Positions 57,866 through 63,075 of a stretch of DNA of 64,000 bases are shown one piece after another. The translations under genes were made by a program, and so were the position numbers. Every line of letters starts with the position of its first letter. Within the stretch, counting starts at the first letter, position 1. The notes beneath the pieces were generated by a model that did no database searches, was not told the DNA's origin, and was given only the letters and a program-made list of their open reading frames with translations. The stretch lies in contig JAHBUX010000006.1 in the NCBI GenBank assembly GCA_019637855.1, positions 62,001 to 126,000 of the forward strand, given 5' to 3'. The stretch comes from Bdellovibrionales bacterium. Its GTDB lineage: Bacteria; Bdellovibrionota; Bdellovibrionia; Bdellovibrionales; UBA1609.

Positions 57866-57916
57866 TGAACGGGCGTATTTTCCGATACGAAAAGCGATGG
57901 AAAATACGACCGTTCA
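57866..57916 (+). promoter_or_regulatory. 18-bp near-perfect hairpin across the start codon of the AAA-M41 gene
   Basis: 57866-57883 and 57899-57916 are complementary at 17 of 18 positions, with a 15-nt loop. The ATG (57897-57899) sits at the loop/3'-arm junction, so the fold would hide the start codon and first codons. No T-run follows, so a terminator for ahcY is less likely. Confidence 0.65.
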
Positions 57917-59876
57917 GAAGCTTGAATCTCTGTGTAGCCCGCGCCGCAAACCCGCGACTCGCGTGGGTCTCCCCAGTATTGAAGATATTCAGCGCCGCGC
58001 AGGTCATCTGAAGGACGTGGCGCTGGTTTTAAAAGCCGAGTTCGCCGGCCTGGACGAACAAATAGATCAAATCCTGACCTTAGTGAGACCTTGGTATGTT
58101 TTGCCACAGGCGCAGCGTCGTCCGACCGTGATTAGCCTATGGGGCATGACTGGTGTGGGGAAGTCGAGCTTTGTGCGCCGTATGGTCGAGTGCTTGGACT
58201 GCATGTCGTCCTTCGCTTACTTGGATTTAGGTAAGGCGAGTGAAGGAGCGGCGTCGCGGCTGTCAGGTGACTCGAGTCTGCCGAGTTCGATGAATCGCCT
58301 GTCGGGGCAACCTTGCGTTTTATTTTTTGATGAGATGCACACCGTGCGCACAGTGGACGAGGGCGGTCACGACATCGATCGTCCACAGCTGTGTGACTTT
58401 TGGTCGCTGATCGATAGTGGCTTGATCACGCAAAACATGGACGCGATCGCCAATGCTTTGAATGGCGTTTTGCGCGAGATCCGCTATTTGCCGCAGAACA
58501 TGCACAACCTGGAGCATGCGCCGTTTGCCGATGAGTATCAGCTGGATCATATGATCGGCATGCTGGAGCTAAAGACGTCATCGCGTGATTTGCGCGAGAT
58601 CGCGTTGAGTGACCCTCATGGCTTTTTGAACTGGAACGTGCAGAAGCTCGAGCAGTTGTACAAGAACAACACACCGATGGACTTCACGCAGGCCCTGATT
58701 TTTACAGCGGGTAATCTGGATGAAGTCTATGGCGATTCGTTTTCGGTGAACCCGGATGATATGAACGCCGAAGATCTGTATCGTCGCACCTCGCAGGTTT
58801 CTCCCGATAAGGTGAAAGAGTCTTTGCTGCGCCGGTTTCGCCCGGAGCAAGTGGCGCGTTTAGGCAGCATGCAGATCGTGTTTCCCAGCCTCTCCAAAAA
58901 TGCATTCTTGCGCCTGATTCGCTTGCGTCTGCAAGGATTGTCGTCATGGATCAAGTCTGCGTTTGATGTGAGTCTTGAGTTCGATGAAACCATCGTACAG
59001 ATGATTTTGCATGAAGGTGTTGTTCCTGCCCAGGGCGCTCGTCCCGTGCTGTCGACTATTACGGAACTTATTGAGATTCGCACCTCGGCCTGGTTGATCG
59101 CCGCCAGCGAGCGAGGCGTGAGCGGATTGAATGTGCGCTACGACCGTTTGGCGCAGACGATCGAGTGTATGGCGGGTAGTGCGACTCTGTGGTCGGCGCG
59201 AATCAAAACCAAAGAAGAGCGTTTGCCGCAAATCACAATGAATGAAACCGTTCGCCAAGTGATCATGGTGCACGAAGCCGGTCACACCGTGGTGGGAATC
59301 GTCACGCAAGGGCGCCTGCCTATCAAGATTCTGACGGGCTCCATGGCCTGGCATCGCGGCGGCCCGCGCGTGGAGTTTCCGCCCACCGACACACTAACCC
59401 GAGACTGCGCCATGGCGATGTTAGCTACTTCTTTGGCCGGAATGGCCGCCGAGCAGGTCATCTTCGGTAAAGAGTCTTTCTCAATGGGCTGCAGCTCTGA
59501 TTTGCAGAAGGCCACATCGCTCGCGGCCTCCATGGTTTCCCAGTGCGGAATGGGCTCCCATCTTGGAGTGTCTTTCCTAGATCAAATGAACCCGGGCAAT
59601 CTGGCCACAGTAAAAGAAAACGACGATCGCGATGTAGAAGCTTTGTTGCAAACGGCTTTGCAGCAGGCCCGTAAAATCCTTCTCGCTCAGCGCCCATTGC
59701 TCAACGCCATCATCGAACTTCTGGACAGCAGCGAACGTGTCACCAGAAAAGACATTGGCGAATCCGTGCGTCGGTTCTATCGCGGCAGCAAAAAAGAAAT
59801 TGATGAAATCTTGCTGCGTGAGCACTCGCGAACGCTTGAAGTCTTAGTCCCTCGCCGCCTGAAAAAAGTATCTTAA
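57897..59876 (+). CDS. Cytosolic fusion of Clp-type AAA+ ATPase and FtsH-type M41 peptidase
   Basis: A 659-residue protein without membrane helices. Residues about 45-420 are an AAA+ module: Walker A GMTGVGKS (83-90), Walker B VLFFDEMH (Asp145, Glu146), sensor 1 LIFTAGNLDE, arginine-finger region LLRRFRPEQVARL and sensor 2 GARPVLSTITELIE. These are of the Clp/HslU type, not the FtsH type. Residues about 450-640 form an M41 zinc peptidase: HEAGHTVVG (459-467) and third ligand Asp535 in GCSSDLQKATSLAASMVSQCG, 76 residues away as in FtsH. It should be a soluble ATP-driven protease. No clear ribosome site; a large hairpin covers the ATG. The next gene converges with a 4-bp overlap. Confidence 0.88.
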   Translation: MENTTVQKLESLCSPRRKPATRVGLPSIEDIQRRAGHLKDVALVLKAEFAGLDEQIDQILTLVRPWYVLPQAQRRPTVISLWGMTGVGKSSFVRRMVECLDCMSSFAYLDLGKASEGAASRLSGDSSLPSSMNRLSGQPCVLFFDEMHTVRTVDEGGHDIDRPQLCDFWSLIDSGLITQNMDAIANALNGVLREIRYLPQNMHNLEHAPFADEYQLDHMIGMLELKTSSRDLREIALSDPHGFLNWNVQKLEQLYKNNTPMDFTQALIFTAGNLDEVYGDSFSVNPDDMNAEDLYRRTSQVSPDKVKESLLRRFRPEQVARLGSMQIVFPSLSKNAFLRLIRLRLQGLSSWIKSAFDVSLEFDETIVQMILHEGVVPAQGARPVLSTITELIEIRTSAWLIAASERGVSGLNVRYDRLAQTIECMAGSATLWSARIKTKEERLPQITMNETVRQVIMVHEAGHTVVGIVTQGRLPIKILTGSMAWHRGGPRVEFPPTDTLTRDCAMAMLATSLAGMAAEQVIFGKESFSMGCSSDLQKATSLAASMVSQCGMGSHLGVSFLDQMNPGNLATVKENDDRDVEALLQTALQQARKILLAQRPLLNAIIELLDSSERVTRKDIGESVRRFYRGSKKEIDEILLREHSRTLEVLVPRRLKKVS

Positions 59877-61651
59877 GGCAGCGGCTCTTCGCCCTCCTCA
59901 GGCATAGTCCATAGCCGAATAAGATCTCGCTCCACCAGCGGCATCAACCCGCCGTTCACATTGGGCATAGGACTAATTTCGTTGTTAATGCGCGAAACCA
60001 GCATGCCGGTCCCCGCTGTTTCCGCCGCCGCGTTGAACTGAAAGAGCTTGAGTTTATTGTATCCAGGATTCGTATTCGTCCCGTGACATGTAAAACAGCG
60101 ATTGAAAAAAACAGCGCGCGGGCCCCCCGTCGTCGAGGTCAGTTGCGAGAATGTGATGGCGCCAAATGGGTTGTTGGCGGCCATCACATTCGAGGCTGAG
60201 GAGACGTTTCCTGCCTCGTCTCGCACAAAGACCCAGACGTTGCGGGACCCGCCGCCTTTAAAGCCTATTGTGGTTGGTTTTGTTCCACCGTCCGTCCAGC
60301 GCCAGCACTCATCGTCGAGCTCCGGCCGACCTGGCGGACTGCGAATCACGTTTTGTTCGATCACACACCAGCCCGCCACCTGCGATTCATTGGGATGCGA
60401 GAGCGACATTGTTCCTACCTGCGTGTCGGTAACAGCGATCGCGTCGATCGCGGCCGGCGCAGGGGCCGTGGTGTCCAAGGTGATCTCGACAGTGGCTGGC
60501 GCCGCATTGATTTTGAGATTTTGATCGGCCACCCACAGATACAGTTTTTTTAAGCCGTCTCCAGCCTGCACAGTGTAGCGCAAGGGGCGTGAAGTGATCC
60601 ATCCGTTCACTACACCTGCGCCGCTGGCTGAGCTGATGCATGGTTGATCGGTGGAGGCAGGCGCCGTGGGGGATTCGGACAAACACCAGCGCACAATGCC
60701 TGAATCGCGCAAAATCGTGACCCGCGCTTCGCGGCTTTTGAGCAAGCGCTCTGAGCCGGTGTCGGGATCGTTGGCAAAAAGTATGGGTGTCAGGGGCGGA
60801 GGGGCATCTTCAGCGCCGGACGTTAGGGCAATTCGGCGAATGTACAGTTGAAACGTATCGCTTGTCCCCAAAGGAGAAATCAGAGTGTTGGCTTGTGCGT
60901 TCATCAACGGCACGCTTTGCGCTCCGGTGACCACGCGGCTCACATTGGTGAAGGTTGTTTGACTTGAAATGGCCTGGCGATTGATTTGAAAGAACAATCC
61001 TTCAATCACTACTGGCTTCATAGTGTCTTTTAATTGCAGTGTGGGATTGGTGAAGATATAGCCTTGCGCCAGATTATTTTGATAAAGCACTTTCACATCG
61101 ATAGAAATGCGGGCGGGCACGGCGCGATTGGTGCTCGGATCTACATCGCTGGCGAGGTCCAGTTCCCAGGTTAAAGTTTGTGTGGCGTTCGCTCCCGTGT
61201 AGATACGATTGGCTGCTTTGGGCGCGGTCAATAGCGCTTCGTTGACCCCGCCATTTTGCGATTTGCTCTGACACTCCAAATACAATCCTTGCGCCGTGTT
61301 CCATTGGGCCGAGAACAAATCCACCGCGGCTTTGTTGTGTGTCCCTGTGTAGGGCGGTTTGTGTTGAGGATTGGTGGCCATAAAGGCCACCTTGCTTACG
61401 CCGGCGGCTGAAAACGCGGCAAAGGAAGATTCGAGTTTAGGTGAGGCGAATGTTCCTAAGCCCTGACCGCCCTCAATATGGCAAGACACGCAGGTGTTGC
61501 GAAAGAACGGATACACTTTGCTTTGATACTCCTGCAACAAAGCCACGTCGCAGTCGGCGGAGCTGCTAAAGGCATTGCTCACCGTGCCGGTGTGGGAGCC
61601 GCATCCGGTAAGTATAAATAAAAGCGTAACGTAATACTTGAGGGGTTTCAT
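59873..61651 (-). CDS. Large lipoprotein with two haem-c-type CxxCH motifs
   Basis: A 592-residue lipoprotein (lipobox LTGC in FILTGCGSHTG). Near the mature N-terminus is FFRNTCVSCHIEGGQG and near the C-terminus FFNRCFTCHGTNTN, two CxxCH haem-attachment motifs. Between them lie Ig/bacterial-surface-like beta domains with TFTNPTLQLKDTMKPV-like strands and a DTTAPAPAAI motif typical of Big-like repeats. The C-terminal 90 residues match the paralogue at 61648. It may carry electrons or sense redox at the outer membrane. The ATG at 61651 overlaps the upstream stop (ATGA). Confidence 0.75.
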   Translation of the reverse strand: MKPLKYYVTLLFILTGCGSHTGTVSNAFSSSADCDVALLQEYQSKVYPFFRNTCVSCHIEGGQGLGTFASPKLESSFAAFSAAGVSKVAFMATNPQHKPPYTGTHNKAAVDLFSAQWNTAQGLYLECQSKSQNGGVNEALLTAPKAANRIYTGANATQTLTWELDLASDVDPSTNRAVPARISIDVKVLYQNNLAQGYIFTNPTLQLKDTMKPVVIEGLFFQINRQAISSQTTFTNVSRVVTGAQSVPLMNAQANTLISPLGTSDTFQLYIRRIALTSGAEDAPPPLTPILFANDPDTGSERLLKSREARVTILRDSGIVRWCLSESPTAPASTDQPCISSASGAGVVNGWITSRPLRYTVQAGDGLKKLYLWVADQNLKINAAPATVEITLDTTAPAPAAIDAIAVTDTQVGTMSLSHPNESQVAGWCVIEQNVIRSPPGRPELDDECWRWTDGGTKPTTIGFKGGGSRNVWVFVRDEAGNVSSASNVMAANNPFGAITFSQLTSTTGGPRAVFFNRCFTCHGTNTNPGYNKLKLFQFNAAAETAGTGMLVSRINNEISPMPNVNGGLMPLVERDLIRLWTMPEEGEEPLP

Positions 61652-63075
61652 TGCTGCACCGGTGTTGTGGTTTGAGTGAGCCACAGGCGAATCAGCGCCC
61701 GCTGTTTTTCATCCAACAATCCTGTCGGCGGCATCGGTGCAGAGCCGCTATCGATGCGTGAGAGCAGTGCAGCTTTCTTGGCGACGGTTGCGCTGTAGGA
61801 TGTCGAATCCCATTGCGCTTGATTGACACCAGATTCGCCGTGGCAAGAAGAGCAAGTGTTGGCGAAGACGGCGCGTGCTCCCGTGCTGGGATCAATAAGC
61901 TGCGCGAAACTGATTTGACCAAATGGATTGTTTGCACTGCGTACCGTTGAGCCCGCCGTGTTGCCGGCGCGATCGCGCACGAACACGCGCACAAAGCGCG
62001 TGCCTCCGCCGCGTAGTCCGGCATACAAGGGTTTGGTCGAGCTATATGAGCAACCCTGATCGTCTTGCACATTGTTCTGATTGGCGTTCTCTTTCACGCA
62101 CCAGCTGACCGTCTCATTGGAGTTCCCCAGTCCGTCGAGTGTCGCCATCTGGGAATCGCTCACTGTTACCGAAGCGAGGGCGGGCGCGCTGGGCGCGGTG
62201 CTGTCGAAGGTGACTTGCGCCTGCGCCGCTGTCGCACTGATCTTGAGATCCGCGTTGGCGATCCAAAGATAGAACTGCACGGTTTCACCCGAGGCAATCA
62301 AGCGGCCCACATTCACCAGGTCAAAATTTGTAGGGCGAGTGGATGTCCAAATATATCCGGGGCAAGGTTCGTTGGTTGAGCGCGGCCGCACAGGTGAAGC
62401 GGTCAAGCACCAGCGTCTAGCGGTGCCATCGCCACTGACTTGAATTGGTACCTGCGTTTGACGAGTGAAAGGGTTGGGGACGGTGATTGTCGGTTGTGGC
62501 GGCACGGGCGGATTGTCGGTGCGTGGCTGCAGCGTCAGCTGAGTGAAGGCCACACCGACCGTATCACCGCTCGATACCGCGGTCATTTTTGTGCGTACCG
62601 AACCCGAATAGATATTTACTGAGTCGATGCCCTTCGCGGTTTTTTGCGCCGAGAGCAGATTCTCTGTGCCAGGGGCGAGCGCTCCGTTTACTCGAATATC
62701 CACACCCGAAACCACAACCTCCATTTCGCCGGTAAACATCTGCATGCGCGGATTGGTGAAGGTGTAGCCGACAGCAAGACTCTGGCCGGCGACTGTTTCG
62801 TAGGTCACGCGCACGTCGAGCAAAAACAATCCGGGAAAGCGCGCATGGGATGGAATCACGTCGCCACTCGACAAATCCCACATCAATGTGGCCGTGCGTC
62901 CATCGCCGAAGTAGAGACTGGGTGTGTTGCGTGAAGCGAGCAGCATGGCGTCCGTGCCAAGTTGGGCCTGTTCCCGGGCCGCTGCTTGGTCCTCTACCTT
63001 GGGCATATCAGTGGCCAAGCCACAGCCCGCGATAAAGATGACCCCTAAAAATAAACAAATACGGATCAGCTTCAC
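61648..63075 (-). CDS. Lipoprotein with one CxxCH motif, paralogue of the downstream gene
   Basis: A 475-residue lipoprotein (lipobox IAGC in LGVIFIAGCGLATD). The middle has FTNPRMQMFTGEM and DSTAPSAPALASVTVSDSQM; the C-terminal part has ANNPFGQISFAQL and a single haem-type motif VFANTCSSCHGESG, then PMPPTGLLDEKQRALIRLWL. These align with ANNPFGAITFSQL, FFNRCFTCHG and PLVERDLIRLW of the gene at 59873, so the pair arose by duplication. It lacks the N-terminal CxxCH of its partner. The GTG start at 63075 has AAGGAT and lies 3 bp after the preceding stop. Confidence 0.77.
   Translation of the reverse strand: MKLIRICLFLGVIFIAGCGLATDMPKVEDQAAAREQAQLGTDAMLLASRNTPSLYFGDGRTATLMWDLSSGDVIPSHARFPGLFLLDVRVTYETVAGQSLAVGYTFTNPRMQMFTGEMEVVVSGVDIRVNGALAPGTENLLSAQKTAKGIDSVNIYSGSVRTKMTAVSSGDTVGVAFTQLTLQPRTDNPPVPPQPTITVPNPFTRQTQVPIQVSGDGTARRWCLTASPVRPRSTNEPCPGYIWTSTRPTNFDLVNVGRLIASGETVQFYLWIANADLKISATAAQAQVTFDSTAPSAPALASVTVSDSQMATLDGLGNSNETVSWCVKENANQNNVQDDQGCSYSSTKPLYAGLRGGGTRFVRVFVRDRAGNTAGSTVRSANNPFGQISFAQLIDPSTGARAVFANTCSSCHGESGVNQAQWDSTSYSATVAKKAALLSRIDSGSAPMPPTGLLDEKQRALIRLWLTQTTTPVQQ

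Follow-up and report, generated by a model that had tools for sequence, protein, structure and literature searches.

A Clp/HSP100-type AAA+ motor joined to an M41 zinc peptidase in a predicted protease family of large phages and few bacteria

We describe a gene from a Bdellovibrionales genome whose product combines, in a single chain, a Clp/HSP100 D2-type AAA+ module and a C-terminal peptidase of the FtsH family (M41). The chimera has intact ATPase and zinc motifs, contains no detectable membrane helix, and belongs to a family found mainly in viruses. Our best reading is that it represents a class of AAA+ proteases, with predicted proteolytic activity, for which the databases and open-access texts searched contain no description, and which huge phages disseminate while a few bacteria have retained it. 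We consider it likely that the protein acts as a soluble and self-contained ATP-dependent protease, in which the Clp-type motor serves a zinc peptidase supplied in cis within a hexamer resembling those of FtsH and Clp.

Introduction

To our knowledge, the motor-peptidase pairings used by AAA+ proteases are few, and are regarded as ancient and fixed. A natural exchange of the FtsH motor for a Clp motor implies that this pairing is modular, and the hybrid provides a clean system to examine which motor properties an M41 peptidase depends on, and whether pore loops of the GYVG type are required. Further, it points to a protease by which uncultured huge phages could reshape the proteomes of their hosts; since one member is present in the cultured Chryseobacterium rhizosphaerae, the enzyme class is open to study at once.

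The initial annotation of this DNA knew of no characterised protease with this layout, and likewise we found no published description of a Clp-motor/M41 hybrid in open-access full text. Passages of a jumbo-phage survey list phage-encoded ClpP, ClpS, ClpA, ClpX, MoxR and BCS1, and name no M41 hybrid (PMC7824862). The "peptidase M41" named for an Ochrobactrum jumbo phage is a replication protein annotated through a remote HHpred match (PMC7139368), and was discarded as a family member.

Results

The gene and its genomic setting

The window analysed here comprises 64,000 nucleotides of a Bdellovibrionales contig. Within it, the hybrid gene (Table 1) starts with ATG and runs for 659 codons with no internal stops, and no in-frame ATG, GTG or TTG lies between the preceding stop and this start. 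A frameshift, an assembly error or a chance join of two genes, which the initial annotation had named as a possible pitfall, was rejected and is in our judgement next to impossible: the ORF is single and uninterrupted, 51 non-redundant relatives from independent assemblies display the same layout, and nothing was found in favour of an artefact.

The gene is single-copy in its 3.37-Mb, 99.98% complete genome, which also encodes a canonical membrane FtsH, a ClpA-type protein and ClpP. Its GC content (54.1%) equals that of the window and its GC3 is native too, and a recent transfer, as judged by base composition, was therefore rejected. The slot 3' of the map-ahcY gene pair varies within the genus, being occupied by the protease here, by an acyltransferase-like gene in genome G003, and by a gene resembling a 2Fe-2S oxidoreductase subunit in genome G001. 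Downstream, on the opposite strand (window 59873-63075, -), we observed two adjoining lipoprotein genes that look paralogous and match cytochrome c weakly (CxxCH motifs). Among the PADLOC profiles of anti-phage defence proteins, the hybrid protease gave only two weak P-loop matches, the best with E 0.019.

Table 1. Features of the hybrid protease gene, with coordinates in the window.
Feature	Coordinates	Strand	Evidence
Whole gene, 659-aa Clp-type AAA+/M41 hybrid protease	57897..59876	+	ORF and Pfam
N-terminus, residues 1-37, variable in the family, no Clp N-domain	57897..58007	+	mean column conservation 0.16
Lead-in box LKxEFxGxDxxID...WYxxP, residues 38-76	58008..58124	+	near-invariant A6 columns; aligns with ClpE LKAHVVGQDDAVDK
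Walker A GMTGVGKS, residues 83-90	58143..58166	+	T85, G88, K89 invariant, 47 sequences
Walker B VLFFDE, residues 141-146	58317..58334	+	D145 invariant, E146 nearly so
Helical insert in the Clp pre-sensor-1 hairpin, residues 177-262, variable in length and sequence	58425..58682	+	comparison with the genome's Clp D2; helices in model
Sensor 1 box GNLDE, residues 272-276	58710..58724	+	N273, D275 invariant
Arginine-finger box RFRPEQVARLG, residues 313-323	58833..58865	+	E317, R321, G323 invariant; aligns with Clp FTPEFLNRF
ClpB_D2-small lid domain, residues 332-397	58890..59087	+	PF10431, 28.1 bits, cut-off 21.9
Sensor 2 QGARP, residues 379-383	59031..59045	+	Q379, G380, R382 invariant
Peptidase M41 domain, residues 448-620	59238..59756	+	PF01434 E 2e-24; family profile against FtsH protease domain 2di4 E 2e-39
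HEAGH zinc-binding catalytic motif, residues 459-463	59271..59285	+	H459, E460, H463 invariant, 47-sequence alignment
D535, third zinc ligand	59499..59501	+	invariant (47 sequences); aligns with FtsH Asp in TGAENDLQRAT

The C-terminal half is an M41 peptidase

By fold, profile and zinc motif, the C-terminal half of the hybrid belongs to peptidase family M41. The Pfam Peptidase_M41 match reaches 86.8 bits, far above its cut-off of 29.9, and the HEAGH motif and Asp535 were found at the residues where the initial annotation had placed them. We built two family profiles, A7 from the ATPase halves of 46 relatives and A8 from the matching peptidase halves; A8 matched FtsH in the PDB (E 2e-39), and the modelled M41 part of a viral member superposed on the FtsH protease domain 2di4 at 2.4 A over 167 residues. 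The NCBIfam FtsH equivalog TIGR01241 scored 70.5 bits on the hybrid, against a cut-off of 600, and covered the M41 part only.

The ATPase half is of the Clp/HSP100 D2 type

The initial annotation had assigned the AAA+ module to the ClpA/B-HslU kind and proposed to profile the two halves separately. In the single hybrid sequence, the M41 and ClpB_D2-small profiles scored above their cut-offs, the generic AAA profile matched residues 80-155 at threshold (21.5 bits, cut-off 21.2), AAA_lid_3 gave no match in Pfam, and AAA_2 reached just E 0.26; the module is therefore assigned to Clp by its lid, its arginine-finger and sensor-2 boxes, the family profile and the structure. In the PDB, profile A7 matched ClpE best (3e-18), followed by Hsp104 (3e-16) and ClpB (4e-15), with ClpC and ClpA also matched, and no FtsH chain was among the best 60 matches. 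When both profiles were run against six proteins, A7 recognised the genome's ClpA (E 3e-15) but not its FtsH, with one phage FtsH at the margin (E 0.001), whereas A8 scored every FtsH-like protein but not ClpA. Whole-protein NCBIfam scores for ClpB (37.5 bits, cut-off 1232) and ClpA (31.6 bits, cut-off 993) covered the lid half only.

Structural comparison was in agreement. In the AlphaFold monomer model of the hybrid (mean pLDDT 86, pTM 0.77), residues 28-434 superposed on the D2 domains of Skd3, ClpC and ClpA at 2.7-3.4 A over about 290 residues (Z 22-23), compared with a fit of only 7 A for whole-length FtsH, and the ATPase part of a separately modelled viral member (monomer, pLDDT 86) likewise superposed on HSP100 D2 domains. 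We conclude that the ATPase half is a Clp/HSP100 D2-type AAA+ module and not that of FtsH, as the initial annotation had anticipated.

An ordinary FtsH that has lost its membrane segment and drifted in sequence would be an alternative account of these proteins. A whole-length Foldseek search does rank FtsH first, which is explained by the presence of both domains in the same order; further, some M41 proteins, such as one from a Rhizobium plasmid, combine a classical AAA domain with the apparent absence of a membrane helix. However, the ATPase profile of the family matches Clp and not FtsH, the lid is ClpB_D2-small rather than AAA_lid_3, and the other M41 proteins examined match PF00004 at E 3e-30 or better, a profile for which the hybrid family stands at the noise edge. 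An FtsH derivative is thus highly improbable, and was rejected on the A7 searches against the PDB and against the genome's ClpA and FtsH.

Conserved and divergent features of the motor

Conservation was assessed in a 47-sequence alignment of diverse members. Invariant residues of the ATPase side were T85, G88, K89, D145, W169, N273, D275, L310, E317, R321, G323, Q379, G380 and R382, and those of the peptidase side were H459, E460, H463, P475, G515, E519, G531 and D535, a set that covers Walker A, Walker B, sensor 1, the arginine finger, sensor 2 and the zinc site. Within the finger box, the arginine that never varies is R321 rather than R313.

The distance between Walker B and sensor 1, given as roughly 130 residues in the initial annotation, was counted as 127 (E146 to N273), compared with about 41 in the Clp D2 of the same genome, which leaves a net insert of about 85 residues. 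Since the Clp D2 segment LLQVMDSGRLTD[SNGRT]ADFQNVILIMTSN aligns with WSLIDSGLIT, the insert, and MDFTQALIFTAGN of the hybrid, the extra residues are located in the pre-sensor-1 hairpin. Across the family this region spans 88-180 residues and is poorly conserved. In Clp motors, the pre-sensor-1 hairpin is located at the pore, on the side that faces the peptidase; by analogy, we propose that the insert probably serves to recognise substrates or adaptors, or forms the lining of the portal to the peptidase chamber.

The aromatic GYVG pore-1 loop of Clp motors was found in none of the 47 members, and an aromatic residue is kept in the same loop region by 41 of them. Consequently, it is not certain that substrates are threaded processively by the known mechanism, and a role in limited cleavage or remodelling is possible; this is our main reservation. 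The IGF/L-like tripeptide for docking to ClpP is missing from the hybrid and from 45 of the 47 members, and the corresponding region of the family carries a DxDADxxH motif instead, a pattern that fits a peptidase supplied in cis. Finally, a simple Kyte-Doolittle scan indicated no membrane helix, in line with the soluble protein foreseen from the first reading: the maximum per 19 residues was 1.41, inside the M41 domain, against 2.49 for the FtsH of the same genome.

Relatives of the hybrid in bacteria

The fusion was mapped across sequenced genomes, as had been suggested at the outset, and its layout is shared by 51 non-redundant full-length or near full-length relatives, bacterial and mostly viral, with HExxH kept in 50 of them. 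Among Bdellovibrionota, 6 of 369 genomes carry the gene, all in one order: four copies are intact, one lacks the zinc residues and one is a remnant with an internal deletion. These copies fall into a single, internally deeply diverged clade (support 100/99), in a tree built without the remnant.

The copy without zinc residues (L004:1438-3447, -) comes from the same genus, is full-length and keeps all ATPase residues, with the HEXXH site lost through replacement; thus, an ATPase-only role has been tolerated at least once. Its N-terminus resembles a signal peptide (MRKASLICWTMVLTTIFTNLPAHA), and its product is possibly an exported pseudoprotease. In the remnant (L005:1345-2410, -, genome G045), the ATPase core is deleted and the two pieces adjoin in different frames.

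Other bacterial carriers are two Chryseobacterium genomes, a Sphingobacteriaceae MAG, a Chitinophagales MAG and a short Rhodoferax MAG contig; the copy on the latter groups tightly with a viral sequence, and the contig may be mis-binned. A pattern-limited scan of 84,980 species yielded at least 7 loci, which is a lower bound. In both Chryseobacterium genomes (L011:6883-9845 and L012:6883-9857, +), the protease gene lies directly 3' of a DUF4407 gene, which suggests an operon; this adjacency was seen nowhere else. No conserved operon was found: neighbours differ among Bdellovibrionota, and across 26 loci the sole widely shared protein is the protease itself.

The family is mainly viral

Most known members are found in IMG/VR, which contains 54 loci of the family on contigs of up to 548 kb, and we conclude that the family is mainly viral and carried by large phages. 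A T4-type portal was present on 14 of 41 IMG/VR contigs and a tail-sheath match on 8 of 41, while terminase matched in 7 viral records of 27 records tested; any of these three hallmark genes was detected on just 16 of the 41 viral contigs, many of which are fragments. Ribosomal protein S7 was found on none of the 41, compared with four of five bacterial hosts. Genes near the viral members encode, among others, an SbcC-like nuclease, a DNA helicase, nicotinamide phosphoribosyltransferase (NAMPT) and homing endonuclease families. The viral loci L086, L031 and L065 harbour very long-branched members, and their contigs may represent unusual phage lineages. At the sensitivity used, 50,697 GenBank phage records and 72,556 plasmids contained no full-length member, only matches to the M41 part, which suggests that the family is restricted to uncultured phages, apart from rare bacterial copies.

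Bacterial members fall in several separate places among deep viral branches. The tree is unrooted and the direction of transfer cannot be read from it; the breadth of viral diversity and this scattering point to a phage-first origin. The opposite course, in which the protease arose on bacterial chromosomes and was acquired several times by huge phages, would concern origin only and is compatible with a threading mechanism. The occurrence of bacterial members in up to three phyla and the native composition of the Bdellovibrionota gene (GC 54.1%) speak for it, but members are rare both in that phylum and in the species scan, and their placement among viral branches argues against it; we regard a bacterial origin as rather unlikely.

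Discussion

An alternative reading takes the protein for a site-specific processing enzyme rather than a general unfoldase-protease: its Clp-type ring would reshape or position a small number of proteins of phage or host, and limited cuts by the M41 domain would serve, for instance, virion maturation or host takeover. The absence of the GYVG loop throughout the alignment, the T4-type virions of many carrier phages, and the highly variable insert, which could bind lineage-specific partners, are compatible with such a role. On the other hand, the aromatic residue retained in the pore-loop region by most members, the invariance of the full Walker, sensor and finger set, and the lack of a conserved structural-gene neighbourhood count against it, and we consider limited processing unlikely, if less remote than an FtsH derivative.

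We favour an ATP-dependent threading protease. By analogy with FtsH and Clp, six subunits would form a ring; the motor would grip a substrate, unfold it at the expense of ATP, thread it through the pore and deliver it into an underlying chamber that holds six M41 sites in place. The fusion in cis would stand in for both the membrane anchor of FtsH and the docking of Clp to a separate ClpP. Large phages are the main carriers, and one lineage would have entered Bdellovibrionota chromosomes long ago, leaving in this genome what is now a solitary chromosomal copy. Candidate substrates are host proteins and phage assembly or takeover factors.

Since the hybrid has neither the motor nor the membrane anchor of FtsH, nor the docking loop of a ClpP partner, it would define a new motor-peptidase class. 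In broader terms, we lean, with some reserve, towards a further class of AAA+ protease beside the Clp, Lon, FtsH, HslUV and proteasome types, put together in huge phages by joining an HSP100 motor to an M41 peptidase. Its pore would be non-canonical and its portal insert lineage-specific; it would degrade host or phage proteins and would occasionally have been domesticated by bacteria.

Comparison with known systems

Like FtsH, Yme1 and AFG3L2 (MEROPS M41), the hybrid carries an M41 peptidase with HEXXH and an Asp ligand, C-terminal to an AAA+ module in one chain. In contrast to them, its motor is of the Clp/HSP100 D2 type and not a classical AAA with AAA_lid_3, transmembrane helices and FtsH_ext are lacking, and there is an extra pre-sensor-1 insert.

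M41 peptidases also occur on phages and other mobile elements in the FtsH-like AAA-M41 proteins of Pseudomonas jumbo phages (Wroclawvirus/PA5oct group) and of Rhizobium, Pseudomonas and Euzebya plasmids. The hybrid differs from these proteins, whose AAA domain is classical (PF00004, E 3e-30 or better), with FtsH_ext in the phage one, and the hybrid-family profile matches essentially their M41 part only. A 658-aa M41 protein of a Rhizobium conjugative plasmid (L103:1202-3178, +), annotated merely as an AAA family ATPase, combines a classical AAA domain with an N-terminus in which no membrane segment is evident, and represents a different non-FtsH arrangement.

With the D2 domains of ClpA, ClpB, ClpC, ClpE and Hsp104, and with Skd3 (human CLPB), the hybrid shares the AAA+ subtype, the D2-small lid and the arginine-finger and sensor-2 boxes, its modelled ATPase half (AlphaFold) lying at about 3 A over about 290 residues from Clp D2 and Skd3. 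Unlike Clp/HSP100 proteins, it is predicted to form a single AAA+ ring, has no N-domain or first AAA+ domain, lacks the GYVG pore loop and the IGF/L ClpP loop, and bears its peptidase fused in cis. The Lon peptidase is a Ser/Lys protease, unlike the M41 zinc type of the hybrid. Lon nevertheless joins an AAA+ motor of the pre-sensor-1 group to a peptidase in the same chain, as the hybrid does (PMC7226402).
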